From positions 1 to 39,721 of IMG/VR virus record IMGVR_UViG_3300035698_007108: a DNA stretch of 39,721 bases. One strand, written 5' to 3'. This stretch comes from a virus. Every line of letters begins with the position of its first letter. Within the stretch, counting starts at the first letter, position 1. Below, piece after piece: positions 4,656 to 39,721 of the stretch. The position numbers were made by a program, and so were the translations under genes. Under the pieces are notes generated by a model. The model worked only from the letters and a program-made list of their open reading frames with translations. It ran no database searches and was not told the DNA's origin.

Positions 4656-4828
4656 GCGAACTAGCTACATTAAACCAAGAGAGACTTCTTTTTATGTTGT
4701 TAGGAGTAATACTAGGTTGGTGTATAGTAAGACTAGTAGATGCTTTCAGAAACATTAAAAAGAAAGGAATTAGAAATAGAGTAATAGAAATACAAGATTC
4801 AATAAAAGATATATTCGCTAATTTTTAA
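4652..4828 (+). CDS. Small membrane protein, 58 aa
   Basis: A transmembrane helix (LLFMLLGVILGWCIVRLV) is followed by a basic amphipathic cytoplasmic tail. It overlaps the previous gene by ATGA. The topology of one helix plus charged tail would fit a holin partner or an exclusion protein, but it is far from the lysis genes. Function unknown. Confidence 0.6.
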   Translation: MSELATLNQERLLFMLLGVILGWCIVRLVDAFRNIKKKGIRNRVIEIQDSIKDIFANF

Positions 4829-4860
4829 AGGTCAAGTTATAAAGTTAAACTAAAACAATT

Positions 4861-4953
4861 ATGGTAAAAGATCCAAGAACAAGACAAGAGAAAACTCTTA
4901 AACCAACTCCAGAAGTAGCTCCTGTTGAAAAACCTAAAAAGAAAAAGAAATAA
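4861..4953 (+). CDS. Short Pro/Lys-rich protein, 30 aa
   Basis: The peptide is TRQEKTLKPTPEVAPVEKP followed by a run of lysines, so it is disordered and basic. It begins after AAACAATT and 26 bases after the motif AAAGGTCA (4827). Together with the acidic peptide encoded next it could be a minor structural or packaging component, but that is inference from position only. Confidence 0.45.
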   Translation: MVKDPRTRQEKTLKPTPEVAPVEKPKKKKK

Positions 4954-4991
4954 AAAGTCGTTTTATTAGAAACCTTAATAAGATTTAAAAG

Positions 4992-5090
4992 ATGTTTAAT
5001 TTAATACAAGACGAAGGAGAAGAAACTTCAGTAACTCCTGAAACTCCAGAGACTACTGAAGATACAGCAGAAGAAACTCCAGCTGTATAA
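4992..5090 (+). CDS. Short acidic Thr/Glu-rich protein, 32 aa
   Basis: The peptide is MFNLIQDEGEETSVTPETPE continuing as Thr/Glu/Pro repeats. It is highly acidic and disordered. It lies just upstream of the tRNA-like element and the terminase genes. Function unknown. Confidence 0.45.
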   Translation: MFNLIQDEGEETSVTPETPETTEDTAEETPAV

Positions 5091-5095
5091 ATATA

Positions 5096-5142
5096 ATGGC
5101 CGTTGATAATATCAAGTAAGCAGGTTCAAATCTGTCGGCCAT
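5096..5142 (+). ncRNA. tRNA-like minihelix or decayed tRNA
   Basis: Seven bases ATGGCCG (5096-5102) pair perfectly with CGGCCAT (5136-5142), like an acceptor stem. Inside lie a small hairpin TTGAT-AAT-ATCAA in the D-arm position and CAGGTTCAAATCTG, which contains GTTCAAATC, an exact match to the tRNA T-loop consensus GTTCRANYC. There is no anticodon arm and the T stem lacks one base, so it is not a working tRNA. It may be a relic, an attachment-site fragment or a tRNA mimic. A second hairpin with a GTAA loop (CCTG/CAGG, 5159-5170) follows just before the terminase start. Confidence 0.5.
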
Positions 5143-5183
5143 ACAAATATAAATAATTCCTGGTAACAGGATATAACAGGGAA

Positions 5184-5507
5184 ATGCCAAATTCAAATCC
5201 AAATCTATCAACAAGATTCAAAAAAGGTCAGTCAGGTAATCCTTCTGGAAGACCAAAAGATACTTTGAAAGACTATGATAGAGAGAAGTTTAGAAAGATG
5301 ACTGATAAAGAGAAAGAAGCATTCTTGAAAACAATTTCTCCAGAGTTAAGATATAAAATGGCAGAAGGAAACCCAGCTCAAGATTTAACAAGTGGGGGAG
5401 AACAAATTACTCCAATTCCAATATTAAATTATGTTCGGAATAACAACAGCAACAAAAAAGATACAGAAACTAACGAAGAGGATAAGGATAGTCCAGGGGG
5501 GAACTAG
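5184..5507 (+). CDS. terS: Terminase small subunit-like protein (DUF5681 N-terminus)
   Basis: The 107-residue protein opens with STRFKKGQSGNPSGRPKDT. The FKKGQSGNPxGRPK motif is the DUF5681 signature found at the start of many phage DNA-packaging proteins. The C-terminal part is Asn/Glu/Asp-rich. It sits directly before the large terminase, which begins inside it in another frame, 77 bases before its end. It probably recognises the genome for packaging. The ATG is preceded immediately by AGGGAA, so ribosome binding is unusual. Confidence 0.75.
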   Translation: MPNSNPNLSTRFKKGQSGNPSGRPKDTLKDYDREKFRKMTDKEKEAFLKTISPELRYKMAEGNPAQDLTSGGEQITPIPILNYVRNNNSNKKDTETNEEDKDSPGGN

Positions 5508-6627
5508 TGCCAGTAAAACTGTCAGTATAATTCTTTACTTAATGACAAGAGCGCAAGCAGACAAGACAAAGACATTAACAAGCATAGTATCAGAGAGTTT
5601 CCCACATTTAAGAAGAGGTGCAGAAAGAGATTTCCTGAATATAATGAAAGGACATCATTACTTTAAGGATAAGCAATGGGATAGAACAAACCACGTTTAC
5701 ACATTTAATACAGGGAAGCAAGTAGGAAGTCAGATAGAGTTCTTCTCTGTAGATCAACCAGAGAAGGTAAGAGGCGCAAGAAGAGACAGACTGTTTATTA
5801 ACGAGGTCAACAATGTTCCTTTTAAAGCATTTGAAGAGTTAGAGGTAAGAACCAAAGACTTTGTATTCTTAGACTACAATCCTACAAATGAGTTCTGGCT
5901 ATTCACAGAAGTAATACCAAAGAGAACAGATACAGAGTTTATCATATTGACTTACAAGGATAATGAGGCCTTGAGCAAAGAGATTACAGCTTCTATTGAA
6001 CAAAGAAGAGGACGTAAAGACTGGTGGCAGGTATATGGATTAGGTCAATTAGGTGTAATTGAAGGTAGGATATACAAAGACTGGCAGATAATAGATGAGA
6101 TACCTCACGAAGCTAAGCTAATATGTCGTGGGTTAGACTACGGATATACTAACGATCCAACAGCTATAATAGATATTTACAAGTATAATGGTGGATTTGT
6201 TCTAGATGAGATAGCTTTTCAGAAAGGACTTAGTAACAAACAAATATCAGATATATTAGACAACCAGAGGAAAGTTCCATTAGTTCCTGATTCATCAGAG
6301 CCTAAGAGCAACGATGAGCTTAAAAGCTATGGACATACAGTTATACCAGCTGAAAAGGGCAAAGATAGCGTTTGTAATGGCATACAGCTAGTTCAAGATC
6401 AAGCAGTATCAGTTACAAAGCACAGTATAAATATAATAAAAGAGTATCGTAATTACTTATGGGAGATAGATAAAGACGAAAAGGTATTGAATGTTCCAGA
6501 GCATCAGTTCAGTCATTCAATGGATGCTATAAGGTACGGAATGTCTTACATTCTTAAAAAGCCAAAGGAAGTAGAGTATATAGAAGAACCACCAGAAGAG
6601 CCAATTTATAACCGAATAAATATTTGA
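5431..6627 (+). CDS. terL: Terminase large subunit
   Basis: This 398-residue packaging motor has an N-terminal ATPase with Walker A-like VQGGTSASKT (residues 21-30) and a Walker B-like LFINE. The C-terminal RNase H-like nuclease has its metal-binding acids in GLDYGYTNDPTA, VPDSSEPK and HSMDAIRY. This is the Terminase_3/PBSX-like group. The protein cuts concatemers and pumps DNA through the portal at 6928. Its start lies inside the small-subunit gene in a different frame, so the first 25 or so codons are double-coding. Confidence 0.92.
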   Translation: MFGITTATKKIQKLTKRIRIVQGGTSASKTVSIILYLMTRAQADKTKTLTSIVSESFPHLRRGAERDFLNIMKGHHYFKDKQWDRTNHVYTFNTGKQVGSQIEFFSVDQPEKVRGARRDRLFINEVNNVPFKAFEELEVRTKDFVFLDYNPTNEFWLFTEVIPKRTDTEFIILTYKDNEALSKEITASIEQRRGRKDWWQVYGLGQLGVIEGRIYKDWQIIDEIPHEAKLICRGLDYGYTNDPTAIIDIYKYNGGFVLDEIAFQKGLSNKQISDILDNQRKVPLVPDSSEPKSNDELKSYGHTVIPAEKGKDSVCNGIQLVQDQAVSVTKHSINIIKEYRNYLWEIDKDEKVLNVPEHQFSHSMDAIRYGMSYILKKPKEVEYIEEPPEEPIYNRINI

Positions 6628-14076: not shown

Positions 14077-14681
14077 CTGGTGCCGAAATTATAGCTCTCT
14101 TTAATTTATTTGTTGACGACACGACAGAATTAAGTGCTGCTCAAGAATTAGCACTACTTAATCGTGTCTATAAGAGAATATGCTCTAATAGACCTTATGA
14201 GTTTCTAAAGACAAATGCTACAGGAGCAGTTGCTGCTGGTGGAACAATAGCTTTACCAGCTGATTTTCTACATCTTACAGAAAACAGTCAGGAAACAGAT
14301 ATATCAGTAGGACAGGGTCAATCGGTGTCAAAAGTGGTCTATGTGGACGATGAACCATACAATATAATCAATTTCTCTGATAGAGAGAATAGTTCAGGTG
14401 CATATATTGATTTTGCAGCTAGCACTATAACATTTACAGATACTACTGTTACAGGAACTTATAAATTTGACTATATCAAGATACCAGCTGATTTAACAGT
14501 AGCTACTTCTCCTATATTTCCAACTCCATATCATGAAGCAATAGGATACGGAATGGCTATAGATGGCTTTATGACACAATTATTTGATAAAGCAAAGAGT
14601 TATGCTAGAGAAAACGAAAAGAAATTTGATGAAATAATGGCTAATATGGATATTTATAACGCTAACTTACGGGCAGAATAA
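14073..14681 (+). CDS. Head-tail adaptor
   Basis: The 202-residue protein begins MTGAEIIALFNLFVDDTTEL with a helix that includes ALLNRVYKRICSNRPYEFLK. A small beta domain follows (GGTIALPADFLHLTEN), and the C-terminal helix contains YHEAIGYGMAIDGFMTQLFD. This helix-beta-helix layout and the place just before the nozzle gene fit the gp11/connector adaptors that sit under the portal of short-tailed phages. The assignment is by layout and position, not by a catalytic motif. Confidence 0.75.
   Translation: MTGAEIIALFNLFVDDTTELSAAQELALLNRVYKRICSNRPYEFLKTNATGAVAAGGTIALPADFLHLTENSQETDISVGQGQSVSKVVYVDDEPYNIINFSDRENSSGAYIDFAASTITFTDTTVTGTYKFDYIKIPADLTVATSPIFPTPYHEAIGYGMAIDGFMTQLFDKAKSYARENEKKFDEIMANMDIYNANLRAE
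14669..14675 (+). promoter_or_regulatory. ACGGGCA start-proximal box (nozzle)
   Basis: ACGGGCA lies 6 bases before the ATG at 14682, overlapping the last codons of the adaptor. Confidence 0.5.
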
Positions 14682-29252: not shown

Positions 29253-31715
29253 ATGAATTATTTATCAAATAACAAAACATATAAGGATTCACTTGATTCA
29301 GATGTTTCAGTTACTATTGGAGATGACAGAGATGCTACAAAGTTCAAAGCCCATGCAAAAATGGAGTTTTGGGGTGAGGATACCATTACTTTTGAAGAAG
29401 AAGGAATAGAAGAAACACCAGTTTTTTTAAATGATAAAATAACAATAGAAAACTCTAAAATGAAGAGAGAGTGGTATAACGAACTTCAATCAAAACTAAA
29501 GTGGGTATTCACATTTAAAGAAAAACCAGCAAGTAATAAGTATCAGTTAAAACTAGGTGGAAACTGGCAAGACTTTGATTTCTGGTATCAACCAGAACTA
29601 ACTCAACAAGACATAGACGAGGGTTGTTCTAGACCTGATAATGTAGTTGGTTCTTATGCAGTTTATCACAAGACAAAGAGAGACAATCGTCCAGGAAAAC
29701 CTAATTACAAAATTGGAAAGGCGTTGCACATCTTCAGACCACAAGCTGTGGATGCTGATGGTAAGAAAAGCTGGGTTGATTTACACATTGAGAACGGAAC
29801 TTACACAGTTACAATCTCACAGGACTTCTTAGACAAAGCTACTTACCCAGTTAGGATTAATGATACTTTTGGATGGGAAGGAGCTGCTGCAAGTTCAGTA
29901 GTAAATCTTAATGGGTATATTGAAACAACATGGTTAGGAGACCCAACTGCTACTGGAGTAGTTAATAAGTTTGTAGTTAATTGTGGTGGATTTAATGTTA
30001 AGCATACATGTGCTTTATTTACAACAGATGGAGCAACACCTGAGCAACCAGATACAATAGTAGATACAAGTGATGAATTTACATCAGTTCTTACAGCTAA
30101 AGATGACTATGATGTTCCATTCACTGTAACTCCGCCAACCGTAACCAACGGAGTAGAATACTGGGCAGCATTTACATCTGATAGGAGTGGTTCTGCTAAT
30201 GGAACTATATCTTATGATGTCCAGAATGATAAGTCAAACTTTCATGCTAACGCTAACTACCCAGAGTTTCCTAGTCCTAATGAAGGTACTACAAGGGATA
30301 GGCAATGTGCTATCTATTGTGATTTTACACCAGAAGGAGCAGGAAGTGCTTCAGTATCCCCTTCAGTTTCACCATCTGTTTCACCAAGTCCAAGTGTCTC
30401 ACCAAGCGTTTCTCCATCTTTAAGTCCATCAGTATCACCTTCTGTTTCTCCTTCAGTATCTCCAAGCCCAAGTTTATCACCAAGTGCTTCTCCAAGTTTA
30501 TCACCGTCAGTTTCACCTTCAGTAAGTCCTTCTCCTTCTTTAAGTCCGAGTTTATCACCAAGTTTATCTCCTTCTGTTTCACCAAGTTTAAGTCCATCAG
30601 TAAGTCCTTCTGTAAGTCCCAGTTTAAGTCCTTCTGTTAGTCCAAGTATTTCTCCTTCTCCTAGTCTTTCTCCATCAGTTTCACCGTCTGTTAGTCCTTC
30701 AGTTTCACCTAGTGTTTCCCCATCACCTTCACTAAGTCCAAGTGTAAGCCCAAGTTTAAGTCCAAGTGTTAGCCCATCTGTTTCTCCATCAGTTTCACCA
30801 AGTCCTAGTGTTTCCCCTAGTGTTTCACCATCTGTTTCTCCTAGTGTCAGTCCATCTGTATCGCCTTCGGTATCTGCTTCTGTATCACCATCTTCATCAC
30901 CTAGTGTTCCTGCTGGAAGAACATACTTTGAATATGACAGCACTCTTCATTGGATTACTTTCGTAATAGAAGGAATAGAAACATTTAGAATAAAAAATGA
31001 ATCACCTGTAAGAACTGTCTATATTGGTAATGGAGCTGATGAAGATAGTGCATTAAAGTTTTTTGGTGATACAAGTACATATTCTTTACTTCACGATGAA
31101 GATAATGGAAGTTTAGCCTTATCTGCAGACGATGCTGTTAACTATACTAAATTTGAAGATGATGGATTTATGGAAGCAAATGGAACTGCTGTTGCATATA
31201 AGGATATAAATATAGCAGGTTATTTACTTGCTAAACCTGCTGCGTCTGCTCCTGATACAGATACTTTTAGAAGCACAGGTGGAGTAGATACTACAATAGA
31301 AACTTATGCCTTTGCTGTAGGCGAAATGGTTCACGGAGGATTTGAGTTACAGCATGATTACGAAGAAGGAACTAATCTTGTATTTCATGTTCATTGGCAA
31401 GGAATAGCAGCACCAACAGGAACTGATAATGTTCAATGGAGATTAAATTATATCGTAGCGAGAAGTGGAGTAACATTGGCAGCAGCTACAGTAATTGATA
31501 GTCCTGATACAACAATAGACACTCAATATAGATGCTATAGAACTGATTTTGCAGTTATTACTGGAACAACATTTAAGATGGAAGATCAGTTTATGTTCAC
31601 TCTTACAAGAGTTGCAGCAACAGGTGATGCTTATGTTGGAGATGCTTTAATAGAAACAGCAGGTATTCATTATAAAGTAAATACTTTAGGAAGTAGATCA
31701 ATAGCAGCTAAATAA
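29253..31715 (+). CDS. Virion protein with long Ser-Pro-Ser-Val repeat stalk
   Basis: The 820-residue protein has three parts. The first 363 residues are globular and beta-rich (TIGDDRDATKFKAHAKMEFW, then FLDKATYPVRINDTFGWEG). Residues 365-553 are a low-complexity SVSP/SPSV/SLSP repeat. The last 265 residues are beta-rich again (RTYFEYDSTLHWITFVIEGI, then VHGGFELQHDYEEGTNLVFH). It looks like a fibre or decoration with two domains on a long flexible stalk. Ser/Thr-rich stalks are good sites for O-glycosylation, and the glycosyltransferase cassette lies directly upstream. Confidence 0.75.
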   Translation: MNYLSNNKTYKDSLDSDVSVTIGDDRDATKFKAHAKMEFWGEDTITFEEEGIEETPVFLNDKITIENSKMKREWYNELQSKLKWVFTFKEKPASNKYQLKLGGNWQDFDFWYQPELTQQDIDEGCSRPDNVVGSYAVYHKTKRDNRPGKPNYKIGKALHIFRPQAVDADGKKSWVDLHIENGTYTVTISQDFLDKATYPVRINDTFGWEGAAASSVVNLNGYIETTWLGDPTATGVVNKFVVNCGGFNVKHTCALFTTDGATPEQPDTIVDTSDEFTSVLTAKDDYDVPFTVTPPTVTNGVEYWAAFTSDRSGSANGTISYDVQNDKSNFHANANYPEFPSPNEGTTRDRQCAIYCDFTPEGAGSASVSPSVSPSVSPSPSVSPSVSPSLSPSVSPSVSPSVSPSPSLSPSASPSLSPSVSPSVSPSPSLSPSLSPSLSPSVSPSLSPSVSPSVSPSLSPSVSPSISPSPSLSPSVSPSVSPSVSPSVSPSPSLSPSVSPSLSPSVSPSVSPSVSPSPSVSPSVSPSVSPSVSPSVSPSVSASVSPSSSPSVPAGRTYFEYDSTLHWITFVIEGIETFRIKNESPVRTVYIGNGADEDSALKFFGDTSTYSLLHDEDNGSLALSADDAVNYTKFEDDGFMEANGTAVAYKDINIAGYLLAKPAASAPDTDTFRSTGGVDTTIETYAFAVGEMVHGGFELQHDYEEGTNLVFHVHWQGIAAPTGTDNVQWRLNYIVARSGVTLAAATVIDSPDTTIDTQYRCYRTDFAVITGTTFKMEDQFMFTLTRVAATGDAYVGDALIETAGIHYKVNTLGSRSIAAK
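30345..30911 (+). repeat. Coding minisatellite (Ser-Val-Ser-Pro repeat)
   Basis: About 567 bases encode roughly 189 residues of SVSPS-type repeats with frequent SLSP, SPSP and SISP variants. Codons vary between copies (TCA/TCT/AGT, CCA/CCT), so the repeat is old or selected at protein level and was not recently amplified as DNA. Long open frames on the minus strand here are side effects of the repeat. Confidence 0.9.
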
Positions 31716-33992: not shown

Positions 33993-34041
33993 AAATAGCA
34001 AAACAAGAAGACGAAATAAGCGACAGAAGAAAAACACTTGA
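33985..34041 (+). CDS. Possible 18-residue basic peptide
   Basis: A frame starting in ATGAGTAG (overlapping the previous stop) gives a very basic peptide ending KNT. Its TGA stop is part of the TTGACA of the next promoter. It may only be a spacer. Confidence 0.25.
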   Translation: MSRNSKTRRRNKRQKKNT

Positions 34042-34067
34042 CACTACCCTTGGCTTTATGTTAAGAT
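34038..34067 (+). promoter_or_regulatory. Sigma70-type promoter
   Basis: ACACTTGACA with TTGACA at 34038-34043 and TAAGAT at 34062-34067 (18-base spacer). A TG two bases upstream of the -10 box makes it extended. Transcription starts near 34074 and leads into a two-state hairpin region and the gene at 34180. Confidence 0.75.
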
Positions 34068-34115
34068 AGGAAGTGACAGGTAAACATATATCATTATGCT
34101 AATAAATTCATAAAA

Positions 34116-34174
34116 AGTAATCGCAGTAAAGACCCGCTTGGCAATTTTGCGATTACTGGCGGGTCTTTATTTTT
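34116..34174 (+). promoter_or_regulatory. Attenuator with mutually exclusive 10-bp stems
   Basis: Four 10-base arms are interleaved. AGTAATCGCA (34116-34125) pairs perfectly with TGCGATTACT (34148-34157). AAAGACCCGC (34128-34137) pairs perfectly with GCGGGTCTTT (34159-34168), which runs into ATTTTTA. The single-base gap at 34158 cannot let both full stems form at once, so they compete. The second stem is an intrinsic terminator and the first would be an antiterminator. This is a classic switch layout between promoter and gene. Confidence 0.75.
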
Positions 34175-34179
34175 AGATT

Positions 34180-34689
34180 ATGAAAAATATAATAAAAGAT
34201 GAAAGTGGGGATAAGAAGTATTTTACTCAAATTCCTAATATGATAGTTAATCACTCTACTGCTTATGAGCAGTCTCTTTACCTTATAATGAAAAGATTAG
34301 CTGGAGAGGGTGGATGTTGTTATGCTTCTCTTAACTTCTTGGCTAAGAAAATGGGAATACATAAAACAACAGTTTCTAAAACGATAACTAAACTTTTAAA
34401 AAGAAAATGGATTAAAGAAACTACTAAAACAAAAGTAAGAGGTGGTTATACAAGAACTTTTATAATAACAGATCTATGGAAGTTAAATATGAACAATTAT
34501 GAAAGTGGTGTTGAAATGACCACTAAAGGTGGTGCTATTAATAACCGAAGTGGTGCTAATATAGACAGAGGTGGTGCTGAAAGCGACACTAGTAAGAAGA
34601 AGAGTAATATATATAATAAGAGGTTAATATTTAAAAAACCTAAAAAGCTCTTTATTCCTGGTTATGGAGTAGTAGACGATTATAATTAA
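34180..34689 (+). CDS. Winged-helix DNA-binding protein (replication or regulation)
   Basis: Residues about 15-110 form a helix-turn-helix domain of the HTH_36/replication-initiator kind: FTQIPNMIVNHSTAYEQSLY, then CYASLNFLAKKMGIHKTTVSK as the recognition helix, and a wing ending TRTFIITDLW. The tail holds degenerate GGA repeats (TKGGAINNRSGANIDRGGAE). As the first gene behind the attenuated promoter at 34038 it is a good candidate for an early regulator or replication initiator. No other replication initiator is visible. Confidence 0.78.
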   Translation: MKNIIKDESGDKKYFTQIPNMIVNHSTAYEQSLYLIMKRLAGEGGCCYASLNFLAKKMGIHKTTVSKTITKLLKRKWIKETTKTKVRGGYTRTFIITDLWKLNMNNYESGVEMTTKGGAINNRSGANIDRGGAESDTSKKKSNIYNKRLIFKKPKKLFIPGYGVVDDYN

Positions 34690-37941: not shown

Positions 37942-38060
37942 TCCCCACAAATGAGGGGTAGAGTATACGCAACATATAGTTTGTTAGCAAGTTGATAAAA
38001 ATTTGCGACATACGAGTTATATATTTAACGGTATTCTTACCTTCTTTTGTAGGGATTATA
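37937..38060 (+). ncRNA. Structured 124-base element before the SSB-like gene
   Basis: TATAATCCC (37937-37945) pairs perfectly with GGGATTATA (38052-38060), closing about 106 bases. Inside are CCCC/GGGG (37943-37957, competing with the outer stem), GTAT-CGCAA against TTGCG-ATAC, TTG-TTAG-CAA and GGTA-TTCT-TACC. No reading frame of note lies within the 152-base gap. It could be a riboswitch-like leader, an autoregulatory site for the SSB-like protein, or an origin. Confidence 0.55.
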
Positions 38061-38093
38061 TAAAGGTCAAGTTATTAATCAAATAATAAAAAA

Positions 38094-38468
38094 ATGGAAG
38101 CTGCAAAACAATATCTACGAGATAACAATATCTTGCCAAGAATATCTTTCAAAGATATTCCAGAGCATACAGTAACTCTTATTGAATCTAAACAAGATAC
38201 TATTAAAGATCAAAGTGGAGAAGAGAAGAAAGGAGTTCAATTCAAAGTTACAGAAAATGGAGAAGAAAAAACATTCTTCACAAGTTCAGTTGGATTGATA
38301 ACAAAACTATCAGAATGTAAAGAGAATGATGAGGTAACAATAGTAATGAAAAGTGCAAAAGCACCTGATGGAGGTTACAAGAGTTTCTACAAAGTAAGTA
38401 AAGCTGGTGCAGGTGAAGAACCATTACCAGAAGTTCCAGATGACGAGATACCAGTAATTGAACCATAA
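38094..38468 (+). CDS. SSB-like OB-fold protein
   Basis: The 124-residue protein has a strand-rich core (EHTVTLIESKQDTIKDQSGE to KGVQFKVTENGEEKTFFTSS) and an acidic tip (PLPEVPDDEIPVIEP) like the C-terminal tail of single-strand-binding proteins. It follows the exonuclease and the structured element. It likely coats ssDNA. Its stop overlaps the next start. Confidence 0.65.
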   Translation: MEAAKQYLRDNNILPRISFKDIPEHTVTLIESKQDTIKDQSGEEKKGVQFKVTENGEEKTFFTSSVGLITKLSECKENDEVTIVMKSAKAPDGGYKSFYKVSKAGAGEEPLPEVPDDEIPVIEP

Positions 38469-39247: not shown

Positions 39248-39711
39248 TAAAAAAAGCAATAATATCAATAGCAGTTTTAACGGGGGTTATTGTATTAGGT
39301 GTTAAATTGTTCGCAGAGAAAGAGCCAGAACCTCCACCACCGAGACTATTTATAGAAGCGCCTAGAATGCCAGTTATGCCAGAGATAGCTCTATATGGAG
39401 TAAATATACCTTATGAGCTTTATGTGATAATTAGAGCAGAAAGTAATTTTGATCCTGAAGCTATCAATCATAAATACGGAGAAAGAGGAGGAATGGGTTT
39501 AGCCCAGCTTATTCCAAGCACAGTAAAACATTGTGAGAAAAAACTGGGTAAAGAAATAGATCCATATAATCTAGTAGATAATCTTGAATGTGCCAATTAT
39601 CTTTTTGAAACAGACGGTAATAGACATTGGGGTTATCCTAAAGATGATCCTAGAGGATATATAAATGGAGTTAGATGGGGTAGTTATGATAATTGGATTG
39701 AAGAATTATGA
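39241..39711 (+). CDS. Membrane-anchored lytic transglycosylase
   Basis: The 156-residue protein has an N-terminal hydrophobic anchor (AIISIAVLTGVIVLGVKLF), a Pro/Glu linker and an SLT-like lysozyme domain. That domain has the catalytic Glu in IIRAESNFDPEAIN (about residue 67), GGMGLAQLIPSTV, and the DPYNLVDNLECANYLF helix. It cuts the glycan of peptidoglycan, at entry or lysis. The gene runs through the circular junction; its end is repeated at bases 1-117. The last residues RWGSYDNW are echoed by a relic behind the HNH gene. Confidence 0.88.
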   Translation: MSIKKAIISIAVLTGVIVLGVKLFAEKEPEPPPPRLFIEAPRMPVMPEIALYGVNIPYELYVIIRAESNFDPEAINHKYGERGGMGLAQLIPSTVKHCEKKLGKEIDPYNLVDNLECANYLFETDGNRHWGYPKDDPRGYINGVRWGSYDNWIEEL

Positions 39712-39721
39712 GATTTCAAAA
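39595..39721. repeat. Terminal direct repeat, right copy
   Basis: This is identical to bases 1-127 and includes the end of the transglycosylase and the first bases of the HNH gene. It closes the circle. Confidence 0.95.

Follow-up and report, generated by a model that had tools for sequence, protein, structure and literature searches.

The replication leader and its interleaved arms

The window, that is, the whole stretch of 39,721 nucleotides analysed in this study, is an IMG/VR virus record with a 127-base identical terminal direct repeat (1-127 = 39595-39721), so that its map is probably circular and complete at 39,594 bases. The head genes (terminase, portal and major head protein) are located at 5-12 kb and an amidase gene at 33.1 kb. 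This late block is followed on the + strand by an ORF at 34180-34689, assigned to the winged-helix (wH; HTH_36 / DnaD_N / O-like) replication-initiation proteins of phages by its matches to Pfam HTH_36 and DnaD_N and to PHROG 270, 678 (O-like) and 186 (DnaD-like). Small genes, an HNH endonuclease and an exonuclease come next and, together with the initiator-family matches, make 34180-34689 look like the head of an early or replication operon. The element described below is placed between the end of the late block and this ORF, and the identified genes around it are all on the + strand. Elsewhere in the window, intergenic direct repeats ending near gene starts were found at 1823-1896, 2569-2642 and 38054-38094 (69 nt at 94% identity, the third copy being weaker), possibly a repeated promoter or leader, and tandem repeats with 66/12-base spacing at 30347-30887 lie inside an ORF of 820 aa (29253-31715).

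A sigma-70-like promoter candidate, P1, was recognised upstream of the element on the + strand (34038-34067), solely by consensus scan. It reads TTGACA-18-TAAGAT with TG before the second hexamer, matches the consensus at 10/12 positions and has a predicted start at about 34074. The same scan gave a weak promoter-like sequence, P2 (34073-34100, + strand, GTGACA-16-TATGCT), whose start would be at about 34107, 9 nt before the first arm; P2 is not better than shuffles (p=0.20). A putative five-codon ORF, MLINS* (34096-34113, + strand), has its stop 2 nt before that arm. A sequence-only reading of this DNA had set the element between a promoter and a winged-helix regulator: the promoter-like P1 does lie upstream, but the gene downstream is a replication initiator by Pfam and PHROGs and no regulator.

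Four arms follow one another on the + strand in the order A-B-A'-B': A at 34116-34125 (AGTAATCGCA), B at 34127-34137 (TAAAGACCCGC), A' at 34148-34157 (TGCGATTACT) and B' at 34159-34169 (GCGGGTCTTTA). The T tract TTTTT (34170-34174, + strand) abuts B'. Complementarity is 10/10 for A:A' and 11/11 for B:B', the latter extendable to 13 via G-U and A-U. Gaps between the arms are 1, 10 and 1 with the B arms counted as 11 bases, so the four perfect arms described earlier are confirmed, and the spacing of 2, 10 and 1 given for them is exact with 10-base B arms. B and B' are the 5' and 3' arms of a GC-rich terminator stem, which with TTTTT has the form of an intrinsic terminator ahead of the gene at 34180; A and A' are the 5' and 3' arms of the putative antiterminator, A' lying within the terminator loop. 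A stretch of only 54 nt encodes the two pairings in cis, and by structural reasoning the full stems should be mutually exclusive, since the connectors are too short to bridge 10-bp helices.

No other interleaved perfect pair with arms of at least 9 bases exists in the whole 39.7-kb window, where first-order Markov sequences of the same composition give an expectation of 0.02 such pairs per genome, falling to 0.01 once 10 bases or more are required. For the 130-nt region preceding the gene, 0/500 dinucleotide shuffles did as well. Neither the window element nor those of its relatives matched Rfam above the gathering score, and the exact window arms had no copy in the viral contigs searched. A search with the B hairpin returned a single match, L001, which was rejected as it resembles an ordinary terminator in an unrelated contig.

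Related leaders with unrelated arms

Single-sequence scans with the wH and amidase proteins gave no matches; a three-sequence profile of the winged-helix protein was needed and yielded 18 loci. Searched by tblastn, INPHARED contained no homologue of the wH proteins of the window and L139, and PLSDB none of the L145 wH. The decisive evidence came from comparison: about 12 other phages repeat the order A-B-A'-B'-T tract, with unrelated arms, upstream of homologous or equivalent replication genes, the arms being for instance AGCTTTTGC/GAACATACAAG in L140, ATGCACCAACC/GAGCAGAGGAA in L144, CTACAAGA/ATTCCCATAGGGA in L145 and ACCACGATGAAG/GAGCCAGCC in L147. The element stands before the homologous wH gene, or before the gene that opens its operon, in L140, L142, L144, L145, L147, L148 and L149, and weakly in L139. 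A terminase relative, L089 (G004), has it at 14412-14492. Its own wH gene, analogous to that of the window, begins 14 nt further on and is followed by a DnaB-like helicase ORF.

Dinucleotide shuffling was applied to 20 regions, each of 130 nt per locus and with 500 shuffles. Seven of them were never equalled (0/500), namely those of the window, L089, L140, L142, L144, L145 and L147, and p values of 0.006-0.012 were obtained for L148, L154 and L156 and of 0.046 for L139. Within these shuffle-tested 130-nt regions, no element was found directly upstream of the wH gene in L141, L146, L149, L152, L153, L155 and L166. A scan of the collected loci recovered 24 T-tailed interleaved elements against 1 per second-order Markov set, among them further ones at L149 2290 (first gene of the wH operon), at L128 3784 (before a helicase-type gene, on a contig of a Chitinophaga-labelled MAG) and in L153/L155. 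L153-L156 display a kissing variant: an upstream hairpin carries A in its loop, and the terminator loop contains A'. Stretches of Croceibacter, Pelagibacter and Flavobacterium phages contained no T-tailed interleaved element.

Phages with initiators of 55-72% identity have entirely different arms, and no arm sequence is common to the relatives. Both pairings are nevertheless kept with changed arms in about 12 other phages, which under the shuffle controls amounts to compensatory change. Covariation in relatives had been proposed as a check on the four arms, and relatives with a single pair as the finding that would speak against them. The check bears the arms out: where the element is present, the two pairs persist in altered sequence, L141, L146, L166 and L178 lack it altogether, and only L139 shows one weak pair of arms. 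The element has the features of a two-state attenuator, with exclusive terminator and antiterminator, a U tract before the gene and compensated pairings in relatives. Some relatives could form a small apical stem around A', which in most cases did not reach significance.

Promoters were found upstream of the element in the relatives too, several of them strong and with a predicted start 2-12 nt before A; L089 has a perfect TTGACA-17-TATAAT, and its A begins at about +2. The window departs from this arrangement: its A is at about +42 from P1 versus +2 to +12 in relatives, and its A-B gap is 1 nt versus 17-39. Two second T-tailed interleaved attenuators, both putative, were observed at L145 5411-5472 and L086 6587-6645 (minus strand), with A within a few bases of a predicted TTGACA-promoter start and apparently non-coding sequence downstream. 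Host assignment through terminase relatives in genome bins was set aside: the close terminase relatives L125 and L126 (74% and 69%) are found in MAGs labelled Nanoarchaeia and Aenigmatarchaeota and are probably misbinned phage contigs, and no wH was found in genomes related to one of these bins.

Folding order, leader ORFs and competing explanations

Minimum-energy folds were computed for transcripts of 11 leaders ending at A' or at B'. When the transcript ends at A', the best fold has A:A' in 11/11 leaders, with complete pairs in ten of them including the window and 89% of the pairs in L142. When it ends at B', A:A' is lost and B:B' is present in all eleven, and B:B' is predicted to be more stable than A:A' by about 0.5 to 13 kcal/mol. 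The predicted order of folding is the pattern expected of a kinetic antiterminator followed by a stable terminator, and agrees with the earlier reading of B:B' with its T-rich tail as the terminator and of A:A' as the antiterminator. Because the terminator is the more stable in all folds, a leader without fast kinetics would simply terminate.

A leader ORF running through the whole switch, with its ATG near the predicted start, was found in nine relatives. In L139, L140, L142, L144, L145, L147 and L148 the ATG is at most about 6 nt from the predicted start where a promoter is recognisable, arm A starts 6-10 nt beyond the ATG, and the frame is open across both hairpins and the T tract for 31-52 codons; the leader ORFs of L149 and L128 agree with these seven. 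Across the nine, arm A is 6-11 nt from the start of the leader ORF, and the stop codon is in most cases 5-7 nt before, or overlapping, the start of the next gene. The ATG frame is open in 9/9, with a product of shuffle probabilities of 3e-7, a somewhat generous figure as the ATGs were chosen by hand. A AATTTAAT word occurs in the same codon phase in four leaders. No run of regulatory codons was seen in the relatives' leader ORFs, and L089 has no leader ORF. No standard start opens an ORF through the switch in the window, where only MLINS* lies before A; a translated ORF overlapping the competing arms, as in a leader-peptide attenuator, is thus absent there.

The element probably acts as an attenuator, an intrinsic terminator that works conditionally, in the leader of the early replication operon of the phage. 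The two-state attenuator proposed at the outset is thus supported and the winged-helix regulator is not, and the early/late or host-state switch suggested with them would be a conjectural role. RNA started from P1 (34038-34067) would present A, next B and next A'. A:A' would form first and hold B in its loop, keeping B:B' off while RNA polymerase crosses the T tract, and the resulting read-through would allow the replication initiator to be made. If A is occupied as A' emerges, or if a metastable A:A' is given time to rearrange, B:B' would form and transcription would stop near 34172. The common denominator across the leaders would be that read-through needs A free for A'. We infer that termination takes place in vivo and that its input is the ribosome. 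In the relatives, a ribosome at the leader ORF start or just behind it would cover A and cause termination, and one already on B would block the terminator and permit read-through; the biological signal would be the distance at which translation trails transcription. In the window, only MLINS* could play the role of the leader ORF, and a ribosome at the stop of this short frame would cover A. Without a leader ORF, and with A at about +42 and a short A-B gap, the window switch may have a different input from that of its relatives.

Two-state attenuators as a kind are already known, and several systems resemble the present leaders. Like trp-type leader-peptide attenuators, nine relatives have a leader ORF that overlaps the competing arms, so that the ribosome position could choose the fold; they differ in having two competing stems only, an ORF that starts near +1 and covers the terminator and no visible run of regulatory codons, and the window has no leader ORF at all. 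The Gifsy-1 IsrK RNA is likewise a phage RNA with its own terminator, part of which reads through into the downstream operon, but it acts by opening translation in trans (PMC4825925) and is not known for competing terminator and antiterminator arms of the window kind. In phage P4, a leader RNA (CI RNA, seqA/seqC) pairs in trans with the leader and causes premature termination of the replication operon (PMC4825925). RNA-RNA pairing in a replication-operon leader decides early termination there as well, although P4 uses a processed trans-acting RNA, whereas the window pairings are in cis and end in a canonical intrinsic terminator. In the window, the terminator loop offers A' as a complement of A, and a P4-like immunity can be envisaged, in which A' of a terminated RNA of about 100 nt pairs with A at the 5' end of new transcripts, prevents A:A' and increases termination; the replication operon would in this way be subject to copy control or superinfection exclusion. 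The gated gene would suit this, being a replication initiator as in P4, and so would the relatives' A near the very 5' end with A' in the terminator loop, the kissing variant of L153-L156 and the full divergence of the arms at 55-72% initiator identity, as expected of specificity determinants. Neutral compensatory change predicts that divergence equally well, no integrase or repressor was present among the window ORFs scanned, and the leader ORFs would be left unexplained; we regard such self-recognition as unlikely.

The leader ORFs are equally left without a role if the element is an unregulated terminator at the end of a small RNA gene that has a promoter of its own. These two signals by themselves would yield an RNA of about 100 nt, and B:B' is always the more stable fold, but A:A' would then be merely a folding intermediate, with no reason for its perfect interleaved arms to be kept across phages of different sequences, and we consider this quite unlikely. 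In pT181, a countertranscribed RNA switches a two-state leader before the replication initiator (PMC3753616); the place and the antiterminator-terminator logic are those of pT181 and pIP501 rep, and an antisense RNA from the opposite strand could bind A and favour B:B'. The pT181 RNA presents a hairpin loop, which the window does not have, and countertranscript control is unsupported as no opposite-strand promoter beats shuffles in the 11 leaders (consensus scan only); it is very unlikely here. Perfect inverted repeats are typical of operators, and a T-tailed interleaved element is scored on the minus strand too, where A:A' is a hairpin followed by T's. A protein operator or a bidirectional terminator acting at the DNA level is very improbable all the same, since the arms across relatives share no sequence for a protein to read and nothing converges on the element.

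The literature search, covering open-access work and limiting the novelty claim accordingly, returned analogues and no description of the class. As far as checked, no earlier account covers this setting, the leader ORF that relatives have at +1 or the spread of the element across phages, and the switch very probably represents a genuine class of phage gene control that appears not to have been described. These results indicate that phages known solely from metagenomes use a conserved two-state RNA switch, which no curated RNA family covers, to gate the replication initiator; its constant design, combined with differing arms, makes it possible to identify and test the switch without growing the host. 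They raise the question whether translation of a leaderless leader ORF, or an RNA in trans, decides phage replication. A wider proposal, which we advance tentatively and hold to be rather doubtful, is a widespread class of ribosome- or self-RNA-read attenuators gating replication initiators, with the A arm, and usually a leaderless ORF too, at the first bases of the transcript and with arms diversifying as phage-specific immunity determinants.

Compact interleaved elements without a T tract

Compact interleaved arms form separate elements in the terminase relatives, where 17 further ones were found versus 0 in one matched null set, many of them directly after a capsid-type gene. Type 1 comprises seven elements (L011 7134-7205, L028 14932-15000, L036 9609-9680, L047 6346-6412, L057 11494-11561, L058 9000-9069 and L074 14866-14937), which are pseudoknot-like and lie between the capsid-type gene and the next gene. 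An outer stem AATTGTT/AGCAATT surrounds two interleaved stems of 8-9 bp with loops of 4-6, 3-5 and 1 nt. In the alignment of the seven, 96% of the cells are paired and 16/24 pairs have two-sided changes (0/500 shuffles); Type 1 has no T tract and no Rfam match. L057 also carries a cluster of seven tRNA genes (4772-5917) upstream of the terminase. A second compact type was found at L003 11385, L006 13855, L008 15998, L010 9126 and L125 9472. It has no T tract, its first arm is TTAACCTCGCA-like, an ATG follows shortly after the last arm, and in several cases it is located 2-9 nt past the upstream stop codon.
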